Assembly: GCF_016735615.1 (NCBI RefSeq)
Contig: NZ_JAERSF010000005.1
Span: 1-64,000 of the forward strand
Reading direction: 5' to 3'
Length of the DNA stretch: 64,000 bases
Source: Flavobacterium tagetis
GTDB lineage: Bacteria > Bacteroidota > Bacteroidia > Flavobacteriales > Flavobacteriaceae
This document shows, in pieces, positions 58,336-62,917 of the stretch (position 1 is its first letter; every line of letters starts with the position of its first letter). Under the pieces are notes generated by a model, which saw nothing but the letters and a program-made list of their open reading frames with translations, ran no database searches and was not told where the DNA came from. The translations under genes were made by a program, and so were the position numbers.

Positions 58336-59100
58336 TTATCCCAACCAAGCTTTAAAATCCTGTACCTTCTCTCGGCTTACAATTACCTCATCGTCTTTGT
58401 AGCTTGGCAAAATAACTTTTAATCTCGAATTGGTATACACCTGAATTTCTTTGATTGCTTTTAACGGAACAATAAACTTTCTGCTTACGCGAAAGAAATC
58501 CTTCTTATCGAGTTCTTGCTCTAAAATCTCTAATGTCGAATCGATCAAATAATCTCGATTGTCATATGTATGAATATATGTTCCTTTATTTTCGCTGAAA
58601 AAACATTCAATTTCTTCTGTAGTAATAACTTTTAAATGTTGCCCTATTTTAACCGTAAATCTCTTTTTATACGTTTTCTCAAAAGGATTTGACAGCATTT
58701 GACGAATCTGCTCAAAGTCTAATTGCAGATTTGAAGTTTCTGCTATTTTCGGAAGACGCGATTTGAATTTTGAAACCGCAATTTCCAAATCATCTTCATC
58801 AATTGGTTTTAGAAGATAATCTATACTGTTTAGTTTGAAAGCTTTTAACGCATATTCATCGTACGCAGTAGTAAAAATGATAGCGCTTTTGATATCTATT
58901 TTTTCAAAAATCTCAAATGATAAACCATCAGACAACTGGATATCCAGAAAAATCAAATCTGGGTGCGGATTATTTTCAAACCAATGAACCGATTCTTCAA
59001 CTGAGTGAAGCATGGTTTCTACGGTTACATCTAACTTTTCAAGTTTTCTTTGCAGCAATCTTGCTGCTGGTTTTTCGTCTTCTATAATTAATGTGATCAT
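58336..59100 (-). CDS. LytTR family response regulator
   Basis: A 254-residue response regulator. Receiver domain (1-120): acidic pocket IIEDE, phospho-acceptor Asp53 in LIFLDIQLSDG, Thr77/78 and Lys98 in YLLKPIDED. LytTR DNA-binding domain (about 145-250): FTVKIGQHLKVITTEEIECF, TYIHTYDNRDYLID and FFRVSRKFIVPLKAI. Last gene of the leftward cluster that encodes a LytS-type kinase and four 2TM proteins, so the kinase at 60481 is its probable partner. Confidence 0.93.
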   Translation of the reverse strand: MITLIIEDEKPAARLLQRKLEKLDVTVETMLHSVEESVHWFENNPHPDLIFLDIQLSDGLSFEIFEKIDIKSAIIFTTAYDEYALKAFKLNSIDYLLKPIDEDDLEIAVSKFKSRLPKIAETSNLQLDFEQIRQMLSNPFEKTYKKRFTVKIGQHLKVITTEEIECFFSENKGTYIHTYDNRDYLIDSTLEILEQELDKKDFFRVSRKFIVPLKAIKEIQVYTNSRLKVILPSYKDDEVIVSREKVQDFKAWLG

Positions 59101-59140
59101 TTACTATAATGTGAAATTTGAAAAAATTAAGAAGTCAAAG

Positions 59141-59527
59141 TTACTCCCATTTATTTTTATTTGCAGTATCTTTTTCCATGTATTTTTGGATTTTTCTTTT
59201 CTCCCAATCTGGGCCAAAAAACCAATCAGCACCGAAAACAGATAATGCGTGAGCTAATAGACCAATTCCCCAAAAAAACACCGTAGAGTAAGTTTGCCAT
59301 TTTGTTAAACCACTTAAATCCATCACCATTAGACCAGCAGACCTATCTCGAGTCAAACTTGATACAATGATGATAATATTTACAATAATGAAAATTTTCA
59401 AATGCGAATAAAATCTTTTAAGTCTTTTTACTCTTCTATAAGCTGCATTATAACTTGGATCATCTGTATACTCTCCAGAATGCTGTCTTGCGTAATCTTC
59501 GTACATTTCTCTTCTAAAACGTCCCAT
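59141..59527 (-). CDS. 2TM domain protein (fourth free copy)
   Basis: A 128-residue membrane protein with the 2TM domain (PF13239 type): AYRRVKRLKRFYSHLKIFII leads into TM1 (about 43-60), a short loop, TM2 (about 82-100, FFWGIGLLAHALSVFGADW), and the basic tail WEKRKIQKYMEKD. It has a longer N-terminus and a longer loop than its three neighbours and is the most divergent. It lies 40 bases before the LytTR gene. Probably interacts with the kinase's own 2TM domain (inference). Confidence 0.85.
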   Translation of the reverse strand: MGRFRREMYEDYARQHSGEYTDDPSYNAAYRRVKRLKRFYSHLKIFIIVNIIIIVSSLTRDRSAGLMVMDLSGLTKWQTYSTVFFWGIGLLAHALSVFGADWFFGPDWEKRKIQKYMEKDTANKNKWE

Positions 59528-59540
59528 AACTATATTTTAA

Positions 59541-59846
59541 TTATTTCCACTTGTTTTTATTCTGTTTTTCCTTCTCCATAAATTCTTTAATTTTTCTCTC
59601 TTCCCATTCCTTTCCCATTCCTGGAAAGACTTCAAAGACTTTTAATCCGTGAAAAACGACTCCTACTCCCCACCACATTAAAGGCCAAAAAAACCATAAA
59701 TAGCTTGGTGATGTATAAAGGTTTATAAAAATTAAAATTGCATTTACTAAAATGTACGCTAGAAGATTTCCGTAAAATCCTTTAATGTTTTCAACTTTCT
59801 TTTTGGCTTGGATATATTTTTCCTCGTCGCTTAAATTCCTTTCCAT
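59541..59846 (-). CDS. 2TM domain protein (third free copy)
   Basis: A 101-residue inner-membrane protein: YIQAKKKVENIKGFYGNLLA, TM1 (about 27-42), the loop TSPSYLWFFWPLMWWGVGVV with TM2, HGLKVFEVFPG and the tail WEERKIKEFMEKEKQNK. It is almost all 2TM domain. Gap of 13 bases to the next gene and 1 base from the previous. Function of the family is unknown. Confidence 0.87.
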   Translation of the reverse strand: MERNLSDEEKYIQAKKKVENIKGFYGNLLAYILVNAILIFINLYTSPSYLWFFWPLMWWGVGVVFHGLKVFEVFPGMGKEWEERKIKEFMEKEKQNKNKWK

Positions 59847-59847
59847 A

Positions 59848-60177
59848 TTATTCCCATTTTTGTTTTTTATACTTTTTTTCTAAAATGCTTCTTAGTTTGC
59901 GCTCTTCCCATTCTTGTCCAAAAATCTTGTAAGAAGCAAACAAATCGATTGCAGAACCTACAATTACAGCTGTCCAAATAATTACAATCACCCAATTGAT
60001 ATATTTAATCGGAAAAAATTGCAATGGCAGATTAGTGTATTCTTTTAAAAGGAAAAGAATCAGAGCAATGGTGTAAATGAACAAATGCTTGTAAAAAGAT
60101 TTCAGCTGAATTACTTTTTTACTGGCTAATTCTTGCAACATTACTTCTTCCTGATCATTATTCAAATCTGTTTCCAT
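59848..60177 (-). CDS. 2TM domain protein (second free copy)
   Basis: A 109-residue inner-membrane protein: LASKKVIQLKSFYKHLFIYT, TM1 (about 33-45), TM2 (about 63-85, IKYINWVIVIIWTAVIVGSA), then WEERKLRSILEKKYKKQKWE. The His-Gly-Leu-Lys-Val-Phe segment of its neighbours is replaced by AIDLFASYKIFG. Its start overlaps the end of the preceding gene by 20 bases, indicating translational coupling. Confidence 0.85.
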   Translation of the reverse strand: METDLNNDQEEVMLQELASKKVIQLKSFYKHLFIYTIALILFLLKEYTNLPLQFFPIKYINWVIVIIWTAVIVGSAIDLFASYKIFGQEWEERKLRSILEKKYKKQKWE

Positions 60178-60481
60178 GACTATTTTCTAAATGTTGTTTG
60201 TTTTCCTTTTCTAGAATCTCTCTTATTTTTCTTTCTTCCCATTTCTTATTGAAGAAGGGCGGCAAACTAAAAACTTTTAATCCGTGTAAAACAATTGCTA
60301 TTCCCCAGCCCATCACAGACCATATCCACCAAAGGTATTCTGGAGAAGTCATATAATTTACAACAATCACAATCGGATTACATAAAACGTAGACAGTCAA
60401 GTGCTCGTAAAATCCTTTTATCTCTTTTACTTTTTTCTGAGCATCATAATAGCGAACTGTTTCTGTGAAATCTTTTTCCAT
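60158..60481 (-). CDS. 2TM domain protein (first free copy)
   Basis: A 107-residue inner-membrane protein. I start it at ATG 60481 (MEKDFTETVRYYDAQKKVKE), which overlaps the kinase stop codon by one base (TAATG). It has the 2TM pattern KEIKGFYEHLTVYVLC, SPEYLWWIWSVMGWGIAIVL, HGLKVFSLPPF and WEERKIREILEKENK. The sequence is close to the C-terminal domain of the kinase, so it probably arose from it by duplication, or the other way round. Confidence 0.88.
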   Translation of the reverse strand: MEKDFTETVRYYDAQKKVKEIKGFYEHLTVYVLCNPIVIVVNYMTSPEYLWWIWSVMGWGIAIVLHGLKVFSLPPFFNKKWEERKIREILEKENKQHLENSHGNRFE

Positions 60482-61821
60482 TATTTCCACGTTTTTTGAT
60501 TGTTGTCTTTCTCTAAAATTTCGCGAATTTTTCTTTCTTCCCAATCTGAGCTGTATCCAAAAACTTTAAAAGCATGCATAGCAACTCCAAATCCCCAGCC
60601 TAAAGCAGAGAACCAAAACCATTGAAATCCTGGTGAAAATTTTAGATTAATAAAAATCAAGAACGGAATCACACAGCAGTATGAAATTATATTTCCGTAA
60701 AATCCTTTTAGTTCTTCTACTCGCTTTTTGGCTCTATAATAAGCTTTTACTTCGTCGGTATATTCTGCACTCATTTCCATAACCGTAATCTGTTTGGTTA
60801 AAATTGGAATCCTAACAGTGAAATTCTTTCCATCTTCCTCAACCTTCACTTTTCTATCCGTTACTATTCCGTATCTGTTTACAATATTTTGCAATCCAAC
60901 GCCTTGTCTGTCCTGCAAAACCTCTTTTTTCTGAAGATCATTCTGAATGGCCAGATAATCTCGATCAATAAAAATTCTAATATGAAGCGGTTTTTGCTCA
61001 CTTACCACATTATGCTTTACTGTATTCTCTAATAAAAGCTGTAAAGAAAGCGGCACCACTTTAGCTTCTGGGTTAATGTTTTCTGTTGGCAATTCGTAAA
61101 ACAAACTATTTTCGAAACGCATTTTAAGCAAATTCATATAGGTTTTTGCAAATGACAATTCGTCTTCAACCGAAACCAATTCTTTATCTTTCTGTTCTAA
61201 AACATATCTATAAATTTTAGAAAGAGAAGTCGTAAAACGCTGTGCATTATCTGGATTCTCTTCTATTAAAGAACTAAGAACATTTAAGCTATTAAAAAGA
61301 AAATGTGGATCAATCTGGTTTTTTAAACTTTCGAATTTGGCATTTGCCGTACCTGCAATAATCTTTTGCTGGGTAACTTTATTTTCCTGATAAAGCTTAT
61401 AAAAATTAAGTCCATGAAAAAACAGTAGGACAATAAAGGTCATTACTGCAGATTCTATATAATTCTCTGCTTTTTCATTGGCAAGAAAACCGATAATTGT
61501 TTTGTTCTCAATTATTACACTTGTAAACAAACGCAATACTCCAATTACGATCATCGAGACTAAAAACGAACTAGCAAAACCAATTAAAATTCTCTTTACG
61601 GAATATGGATTTTCTCTGAATACTCTATCTAAAAAATCAAAAAGAACGACGTTTACGATATATAAAACCACACTGTAAAGCATGCAGTACAAGAAATAAA
61701 TGTAAAGATTCTTGTTAAAGACTGCTGTTCCTAAAGAAGCAAACCGAATTAGGAAAGAGAACAAAAATACTATTCCTCCAACTAAGCATGCTTTTAACAA
61801 ATTAGGTTTTAATATCATCAT
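60481..61821 (-). CDS. LytS-type sensor histidine kinase with C-terminal 2TM domain
   Basis: A 446-residue kinase. Four N-terminal membrane helices (within about 12-140) are followed by a short coiled coil, the His_kinase domain (PF06580 type) with phospho-acceptor His173 in QIDPHFLFNSLNVLSSLIEE, the ATPase part (LQLLLENTVKHNVVSEQ, QGVGLQNIVNRYG), and then, from about 345, a complete 2TM domain (AYYRAKKRVEELKGFYGN, GWGFGVAMHAFKVFGY, DWEERKIREILEKDN). The catalytic core is thus held between two membrane parts. The downstream genes are four free 2TM proteins and the LytTR regulator. Confidence 0.92.
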   Translation of the reverse strand: MMILKPNLLKACLVGGIVFLFSFLIRFASLGTAVFNKNLYIYFLYCMLYSVVLYIVNVVLFDFLDRVFRENPYSVKRILIGFASSFLVSMIVIGVLRLFTSVIIENKTIIGFLANEKAENYIESAVMTFIVLLFFHGLNFYKLYQENKVTQQKIIAGTANAKFESLKNQIDPHFLFNSLNVLSSLIEENPDNAQRFTTSLSKIYRYVLEQKDKELVSVEDELSFAKTYMNLLKMRFENSLFYELPTENINPEAKVVPLSLQLLLENTVKHNVVSEQKPLHIRIFIDRDYLAIQNDLQKKEVLQDRQGVGLQNIVNRYGIVTDRKVKVEEDGKNFTVRIPILTKQITVMEMSAEYTDEVKAYYRAKKRVEELKGFYGNIISYCCVIPFLIFINLKFSPGFQWFWFSALGWGFGVAMHAFKVFGYSSDWEERKIREILEKDNNQKTWK

Positions 61822-61839: not shown

Positions 61840-62460
61840 TTATTTACAAGTTTTTTGAATTTCTAAAGCTCTTTCCAATCCCCATTTTGGAGAATAAGGA
61901 GTTGCTGGTTTAAAAGTATTAAAAAGTTCAATAGATTTATCAACTTGCGCGCATAAAGGTTTTGTATCTACTCCTGTCCATTTTGCTCCTCCTAATTGAT
62001 AATCTGCTTCTCCAAAAACCGCTCTCGGATTATTTGGATCTAATGCTTTAGCTTTCGCGTAAGCTTCCATCACTTTAGCAGAATATTTCATTCCGTTTGT
62101 CATTGGGTCAGCCACAACATATCCAGTGTAAATTAACGCCTGCATTACATACAATTCTGAATTGGCTTGGTCTTTTATTAATTCGACATCTAATGCATCT
62201 TGCGCTTTTGTCAATAACAAATCGATTTTTGTTTTGTCTTTTTCTGTAAAAACAGCTGTTGCATTAATCAAGGCTACATAATAATTTGGCAAATAGCTGT
62301 TTTTTTCTGCTGCGGCGATTCTTTCAAACAATGCAGATGCTTCTGTATTCTTTCCTTCTTTCCAAAGTCCAAATGCTTTATTCATTCCTTGTTCAAATTG
62401 TGTTTGAGCTGAACCTATTACTACTACAAATAGTGTGACTAAAGTGATGATTTTTTTCAT
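61840..62460 (-). CDS. secreted TPR-like helical repeat protein
   Basis: A 206-residue protein with a signal peptide (MKKIITLVTLFVVVIGSAQ) and tetratricopeptide-like helices: EQGMNKAFGLWKEGKNTEAS near 24-43, SAKVMEAYAKAKALDPNNPR near 135-150, and AVFGEADYQLGGAKWTGVDT. It ends LERALEIQKTCK. Probably periplasmic. It is 18 bases upstream of the kinase gene in the same direction, so it may belong to the same signalling unit, for example as a periplasmic input protein (inference). Confidence 0.75.
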   Translation of the reverse strand: MKKIITLVTLFVVVIGSAQTQFEQGMNKAFGLWKEGKNTEASALFERIAAAEKNSYLPNYYVALINATAVFTEKDKTKIDLLLTKAQDALDVELIKDQANSELYVMQALIYTGYVVADPMTNGMKYSAKVMEAYAKAKALDPNNPRAVFGEADYQLGGAKWTGVDTKPLCAQVDKSIELFNTFKPATPYSPKWGLERALEIQKTCK

Positions 62461-62509: not shown

Positions 62510-62917
62510 TTAGAATGCAATTTCAACTTTTGAATCTTTAGTGACATTAAATTTAGCATCGCTATACAAAGGAGGTCCCATAAATCCTTTTGCATTGTTT
62601 GAAGCCGCGTATTCTTCTATTGGCATTCCCATTGAATTTCTGTCAAGCTTTCCGTTGATGTTTTCATCATGATAAGTTGAAATAGCATATTCTCCCGCAG
62701 GAAGATTTTCAAATGTTACAACCGCTTTATTGTCTTTAATTTCGGAAGCCAAACTTTTGTAAGTTGTTTTAAGGAAAGTTCCGTCTGAATTATATAATCC
62801 TACTTTCACGATTCCTGTGTCATTTTTCAAACCTGAAACGGCAACAGTTAATTTCACATTTTGAGCAGACATTAAGCTGCAGATAAATAAAATAGTTATT
62901 GTAATAATTTTGGTCAT
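62510..62917 (-). CDS. DUF2141 domain protein
   Basis: A 135-residue secreted protein: signal peptide (MTKIITITILFICSLMSAQ), then a DUF2141 beta domain with VAVSGLKNDTGIVKVGLYNS, LPAGEYAISTYHDENINGK and GPPLYSDAKFNV. The family is exported and of unknown function; it often stands near TonB-dependent receptors in Bacteroidota. It is 49 bases upstream of the TPR protein and lies on the same strand as the receptor. Confidence 0.85.
   Translation of the reverse strand: MTKIITITILFICSLMSAQNVKLTVAVSGLKNDTGIVKVGLYNSDGTFLKTTYKSLASEIKDNKAVVTFENLPAGEYAISTYHDENINGKLDRNSMGMPIEEYAASNNAKGFMGPPLYSDAKFNVTKDSKVEIAF

Follow-up and report, generated by a model that had tools for sequence, protein, structure and literature searches.

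Why should a sensor kinase end in a small membrane domain, and why should its gene be followed by four genes for nearly the same domain? This question is raised by a locus at positions 58336-61821 of a 64,000-nucleotide stretch of the Flavobacterium tagetis genome (contig NZ_JAERSF010000005.1; the whole stretch is hereafter called the window), where a LytS-type histidine kinase with a C-terminal 2TM domain (PF13239), four free 2TM proteins and a LytTR response regulator are encoded on the minus strand. Our analysis directly supports this gene content, the conserved linkage of these genes in other genomes, the division of the free copies into two classes, and a family-wide signature resembling a translation start at Met348 of the kinase. 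The explanation we favour, and hold to be somewhat better than an even bet, is that the C-terminal 2TM of the kinase serves as the membrane docking module of this LytS/LytTR system, that the free 2TM proteins of the operon would dock on it or on each other and so set kinase activity, and that Met348 would yield a further copy.

Gene layout and domain composition

All six genes of the original prediction were found as open reading frames (ORFs) at 58336-61821, and their families were confirmed by Pfam. The kinase gene (60481-61821) encodes 446 amino acids (aa). Its product matched only His_kinase (PF06580, aa 161-240, 1.3e-25) and 2TM (PF13239, aa 363-436, 3.5e-26), and the full 2TM domain that had been noticed after the ATPase part is therefore present. 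The H-box of PF06580, DPHFLFNSLN, was invariant in 18 aligned kinases. The regulator gene (58336-59100) encodes Response_reg and LytTR domains according to Pfam. By these domains the system is a LytS-type kinase with a LytTR regulator. When the regulator was compared with NCBIfam, the LytR and BtsR models were best, with scores far under their cut-offs (107.9 against 375 bits and 105.4 against 246 bits, respectively).

The free copies, each identified as an ORF with a PF13239 match, are copy A (60158-60481, 107 aa, 1.1e-28), copy B (59848-60177, 109 aa, 2.8e-11), copy C (59541-59846, 101 aa, 1.9e-30) and copy D (59141-59527, 128 aa, 1.5e-24), the last adjoining the regulator gene. The five domains of the locus scored 43.7 to 105.2 bits against a curated cut-off of 24.8 bits, and they account for five of the six PF13239 matches in this genome. 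It is right that the four proteins are little more than a 2TM domain, with two qualifications: the sequence of copy B is divergent, and copy D has a longer N-terminal part. From the kinase to the regulator, the junctions are overlaps of 1 and 20 bases and gaps of 1, 13 and 40 bases, in agreement with the coupling claimed previously; the ATG of copy A shares one base with the stop codon of the kinase gene.

N-terminal to the catalytic part of the kinase, the hydropathy scan revealed four hydrophobic segments, and helices were present there in the AlphaFold2 model too (mean predicted local distance difference test score [pLDDT] 78.4, predicted template modelling score [pTM] 0.42). In the same model the fused 2TM is a helical hairpin (helices 353-395 and 402-421), and linker residues 344-353 have pLDDT below 50. 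The simple hydropathy scan saw only the first helix in the fused 2TM and in copy C, so for both of these the evidence of a second helix comes from Pfam and the model. The kinase is thus predicted, as had been proposed, to be tethered to the membrane at both ends, by the N-terminal segments and by the C-terminal hairpin. Foldseek gave 178 matches to the kinase model at 0.001 or better, of which the 50 listed were histidine kinase structures or complexes containing one. No Pfam sensor family was matched by the N-terminal region up to an E value of 1. LytS proper typically has a named Pfam membrane sensor domain at its N-terminus. Matches of our own iterated 2TM profile to the N-terminal transmembrane region were discarded as generic hydrophobic matches.

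Conserved linkage of the fused kinase and free 2TM genes

We examined 106 fetched loci with a fused kinase, including that of the window; parts of the window's own genome (L001-L007) and loci without a fused kinase were dropped. Free 2TM genes lie downstream of the fused kinase in 103 of them, with one copy in 24 loci, two in 35, three in 30, four in 12, and five and seven in one locus each. In 103 of the 106 a regulator gene follows on the same strand at a distance of no more than 5 kb. Since the loci were picked by a domain lying in a long frame of the match table, the free-copy count of 103/106 is conditional on a fused kinase. In a second, overlapping set, made up of the best 80 of 569 kinase relatives from named genomes, the kinase is fused in all 80 and free copies occur in 79, the sole exception being a sequence that ends at the kinase. 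The nearest named relative found is Flavobacterium sharifuzzamanii A7.6, whose kinase is 99% identical. The linkage in other genomes, on which the original prediction had staked its interpretation, therefore held in both sets.

Three of the 106 loci have no recognised free copy. In two of them an ORF of 119-128 aa lies between kinase and regulator (L019:6177-6533 and L041:4579-4962); these two share 34% identity and give weak 2TM-profile scores of 12-16 bits. No comparable ORF was found in the place of the free 2TM in the third (L029).

The fused kinase was seen in Flavobacteriaceae and in one further family of the order (f5; L102-L108). In loci L102-L107 of the latter, the first and the next free 2TM are 0.7-1 kb apart. 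Of the genomes sampled, PF13239 itself was present in at least 56 of 61 for the genus and at least 61 of 70 for the family (one genome per genus), and in 18 of 79, 36 of 198 and 31 of 148 for the order, class and phylum, respectively. Four loci outside the 106 (L242-L245) have similar arrangements: in three of them a fused kinase comes with a single free 2TM and a regulator. In L242 the kinase frame is shortened and lacks the fused 2TM; a 2TM and then a regulator follow it.

Two variants of the arrangement are of particular relevance. One kinase carries two tandem C-terminal 2TM domains, with one free copy besides (L068:3685-5226), and at L117 an unfused 2TM, an unfused kinase and a LytTR gene stand side by side. 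A domain that is fused once, free in the operon, doubled in L068 and unfused in L117 is most simply explained by homotypic membrane contact of the kinase with its partners. Both variants also fit the hetero-oligomers suggested originally, an interpretation that is partly supported by these comparisons of sequence.

Two classes of free copy

In a tree of 351 2TM domains built on about 100 columns, two classes were separated with moderate support (0.82). The first, T1, contains 105 of the 107 kinase domains together with mainly first or middle free copies. The second, T2, contains 98 of the 103 last or only copies, and is represented in 99 of the 103 loci with free copies. In L020 and L046 the kinase domain and the free copy swap sides in the tree. 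The order in the window is T1-B-T1-T2: copies A and C are T1 and kinase-like, copy D is T2, and copy B belongs to a divergent subclade of 14. As judged from their sequences, then, the free copies fall into two classes that are not equivalent, and the earlier treatment of the four as alike has to be given up.

This result bears on the simplest alternative, that the free copies are functionless, neutral tandem duplicates of the kinase domain. Copy numbers from 0 to 7 and the clustering of T1 with the kinase domain would be expected in that case, but 103 of 106 loci retain one copy or more, and T2 is a separate class with conserved residues of its own. We regard this alternative as highly improbable.

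Those residues are two histidines. Histidine occurs at both positions 42 and 93 (copy D numbering) in 115 of 136 T2 domains versus 5 of 107 kinase domains, where position 42 is usually Asn or Ser; in the 38 last copies of our alignment A3 both are invariant. On the hydropathy profile of copy D, His42 starts the segment 41-59 and His93 lies in the second half of the segment 82-100. These places in the hairpin mean that both residues lean towards the same, presumably cytoplasmic, side, where they could possibly form a shared ligand site.

The paired histidines also speak for another explanation, in which the free 2TM proteins form a working membrane complex that acts on envelope, metal or redox state, and the kinase's own subunit reads the state of this complex and adjusts its synthesis. 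Against it, no enzymatic domain was matched by Pfam in the free copies, a profile search of the PDB with T2 gave no match up to an E value of 1, and the model of copy D (mean pLDDT 79.2, pTM 0.49) had 29 Foldseek matches up to an E value of 10 and none at 0.001 or better. We consider this explanation unlikely, and return to it below with the genes around the locus.

A putative second start inside the kinase gene

Met348 lies in the variable linker between the ATPase part and the 2TM domain. It is kept in 90 of the 106 kinases and in 129 of 146 non-redundant kinases; the latter set was derived from 186 by dropping those with at least 85% identity to one kept or shorter than 380 aa. Three more of the 146 have the Met shifted by one or two residues. 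Initiation here would give a 99-aa product consisting of the 2TM domain only (60481-60780, minus strand). In Flavobacterium johnsoniae, according to the available text of a published study, initiation is promoted by A at −3, −6, −12 and −13 and by low mRNA structure (PMC6847099).

Upstream of Met348, A was found at −13 in 125 and at −14 in 128 of 132 kinases. In codons +1 to +8, A fills 74% of the fourfold-degenerate third positions compared with 32.5% in the rest of the kinase, while T, G and C are all rarer than elsewhere; at the starts of three gene families the corresponding values are 56% and 33%. The bias is thus synonymous and A-specific. A-ending codons numbered 535 before Met348 where 352 were expected, and 589 after it where 357 were expected, with an excess in 126 of the 132 kinases. 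Individual codons show the same: Lys −5 is AAA in 98% (background 73%), Gln −4 is CAA in 91% (66%), Glu +1 is GAA in 98% (73%) and Thr +2 is ACA in 83% (29%). These four columns and Ser −2 rank first among like columns in the kinase, with Leu −7 ranking 6th of 59 and Ile −3 5th of 56. The twelve highest of 415 sliding 8-codon windows are at residues 337-358. A little further down the ranking come windows at the start of the kinase gene and at its end, where the start of the following gene overlaps; these serve as internal positive controls. Among 28 kinases of less than 60% identity, 27 show the excess, and its sum of 81.1 compares with a maximum of 33.4 over 396 control columns.

Other measures point the same way. 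On a start matrix Met348 scores 2.20 on average, the kinases' own starts 1.88 and other internal Mets −5.28. In 58 of 90 kinases no internal Met scores higher, where 10.8 such cases would be expected. Compared with the mean of the same kinase, mRNA structure at Met348 is lower in 126 of 132.

Several observations weigh against a start at this position. Of the 132 kinases, only 63 have A at −3 and 54 have it at −6, and 104 have C at −12. The Val −1 column ranks 38th of 39 for GTA, which means that A is avoided where the start matrix has A in 49%. The genes from which the matrix was made average 4.31 (in-sample), more than the 2.20 of the family, and the median score of Met348 is equalled or exceeded by 6% of codons drawn at random from the kinases. 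Part of the A-rich context is accounted for by the conserved Thr-Lys-Gln before the Met. Nine of the 14 Met-less kinases among the 146 are still slightly positive in A excess. The kinase of the window itself shows no A excess (5 A-ending codons observed, 5.2 expected), being one of four such among 92, and its Met348 scores −1.2, third of its eight internal Mets; in the near sister L148 the score is 1.33, second of eight. A start-like context beyond the need of the amino acids was found, in short, at the level of the family and not in the window's own kinase. Since the context in the window is weak, our reading of the start is a family-level one, and the internal product may be minor in this strain.

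These observations could mean that the A-rich region is no start at all and stems instead from constraint on codons or linker, or that it is the fossil of a gene fusion, as the A supplied by Thr-Lys-Gln, the avoidance of A at codon −1 and the weak context in the window would allow. The bias, though, is synonymous, A-specific and above all 396 control columns, and it is small where the Met has been lost (29 A-ending codons against 28.0 expected, and 43 against 37.4, in the 14 Met-less kinases). A fossil should moreover have decayed at synonymous sites across the genera. Such a constraint or fossil therefore seems quite unlikely to us as the cause, and most family members probably obtain a second product from the kinase gene, a free 2TM of about 99 aa.

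Complementarity of Met348 and T1 genes

In the 106 loci a T1 gene is present in all 14 that lack the Met and in 61 of 92 that have it, with 31 of the 92 lacking T1 (Fisher p 0.005; 0.045 when the Met-less loci are counted as eight lineages, by eye). These 14 Met-less kinases overlap with the 14 of the 146-kinase set but are not identical to them; L219 and L224, Met-less in the latter, are untyped for T1. Each of the 106 loci has a possible source of a free kinase-type 2TM, either a T1 gene or the internal Met. That all Met-less loci have T1 suggests that such a domain is always required, a suggestion weakened by the relatedness of the loci and by imperfect assignment to T1 and T2. The number of T1 genes correlates with A excess (rho −0.33), in a manner confounded with genus, but shows no correlation with matrix score (rho 0.02), and this weighs against the favoured explanation. 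No relation was found between total free-copy number and internal-start strength (rho −0.17 and −0.04).

Under the favoured docking explanation, T2, which is found in nearly all loci and mostly beside the LytTR gene, would be the likeliest sensing or adaptor partner bearing the signal, and the T1 copies, being alike to the kinase's own domain, the likeliest competitors, spacers or modulators. In most family members the kinase gene would add a free kinase-type 2TM through the in-frame start at Met348, and initiation there would tie the amount of this partner to that of the kinase. Synthesis of the internal product, binding between the domains and an effect of such binding on signalling are all inferred. 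Taken as a whole, the proposal that the kinase gene encodes two proteins which, with the free partners, would form a mixed 2TM assembly whose composition sets signalling appears to us evenly balanced between right and wrong.

Neighbouring genes and 2TM domains elsewhere

On the minus strand the kinase gene is preceded by a gene for a 206-aa protein (61840-62460) whose start resembles a signal peptide by eye and which had no Pfam match over the cut-off, and this in turn by a DUF2141 gene (62510-62917, identified by Pfam). Farther upstream on the same strand is a TonB-dependent receptor gene that continues past the end of the window. A homologue of the 206-aa protein is encoded directly upstream of the fused kinase in 77 of the 106 loci; it is absent despite room in 26 and absent without room in 3. 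DUF2141 genes occur upstream of the kinase in part of the loci.

The signal-peptide-like protein in 77/106 loci is a further point for a working membrane complex, and the distribution of 2TM outside the two fused-kinase families is another. There, a LytS-type kinase is nearby in only 1 of 29 loci examined (L117), and free 2TM genes occur without it in the other 28, which also counts against the docking explanation. The kinase linkage is thus not general for PF13239. The same working-complex explanation can draw on DHFR fusions: in a separate 2TM lineage, from other genomes of the family, both proteins scanned are fusions of DHFR_1 with 2TM (L129:2809-3699 and L131:2167-3489), and such a fusion would place DHFR at the membrane.

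In the window's own genome, a free 2TM gene (G000:C1, L005:1471-1815) lies 11 bases before a DHFR-like gene, and a thymidylate-synthase-like gene is close to this pair (both likenesses by eye). Outside Flavobacteriales, stand-alone 2TM genes in L233, L234, L238 and L241 are near a recurring family of 95-97 aa genes that look like winged-helix regulators by eye.

Comparison with known systems

LytS/LytTR-type two-component systems include BtsS/BtsR, YpdA/YpdB and LytS/LytR. The present system is similar to them in having a PF06580 kinase with several N-terminal transmembrane segments and a REC-LytTR regulator, but differs in its C-terminal 2TM, the free copies in the operon and the probable internal start. 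A second kinase product from an internal start is known from short CheA. In-frame initiation would give a truncated form here as well, but the predicted product is the C-terminal membrane domain alone, with no kinase part. SafA and MzrA are small membrane proteins that regulate kinases. Another is MgrB, described in the available text of two reports as a regulator of the PhoQ kinase (PMC8404706, PMC10576120). The free 2TM proteins are likewise short membrane proteins, proposed here to act on a sensor kinase; unlike those regulators, they have two helices and share homology with a domain of the kinase, whose operon encodes them in 1-7 copies.

The original prediction knew of no described function for the domain, and our search of the open-access literature found no paper on the function of PF13239. 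The available text of PMC11237479, PMC9425974 and PMC5395568 contains no description of it, and the '2TM domain' in that of PMC9425974 is DUF4191, not PF13239. The literature searched on internal starts in kinases, and on LytS/LytTR systems with small membrane proteins, held nothing attributable to the present system. In each of five coevolved F. johnsoniae lines, as far as the available text of the report goes, one or other of FJOH_RS09515 and FJOH_RS09520 (LytTR and histidine kinase genes) was mutated (PMC10197871). We did not equate this pair with our locus, because their consecutive locus tags would leave no room for 2TM genes.

Significance

Our results place the functionally uncharacterised 2TM domain in a concrete setting, as part of a conserved set of sensor-kinase partners in Flavobacteriaceae and one further family. 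They also indicate that synonymous-site bias can expose hidden internal starts in bacteria without Shine-Dalgarno sequences. F. johnsoniae is a genetically tractable member of the genus, for which ribosome profiling has been published (PMC6847099).

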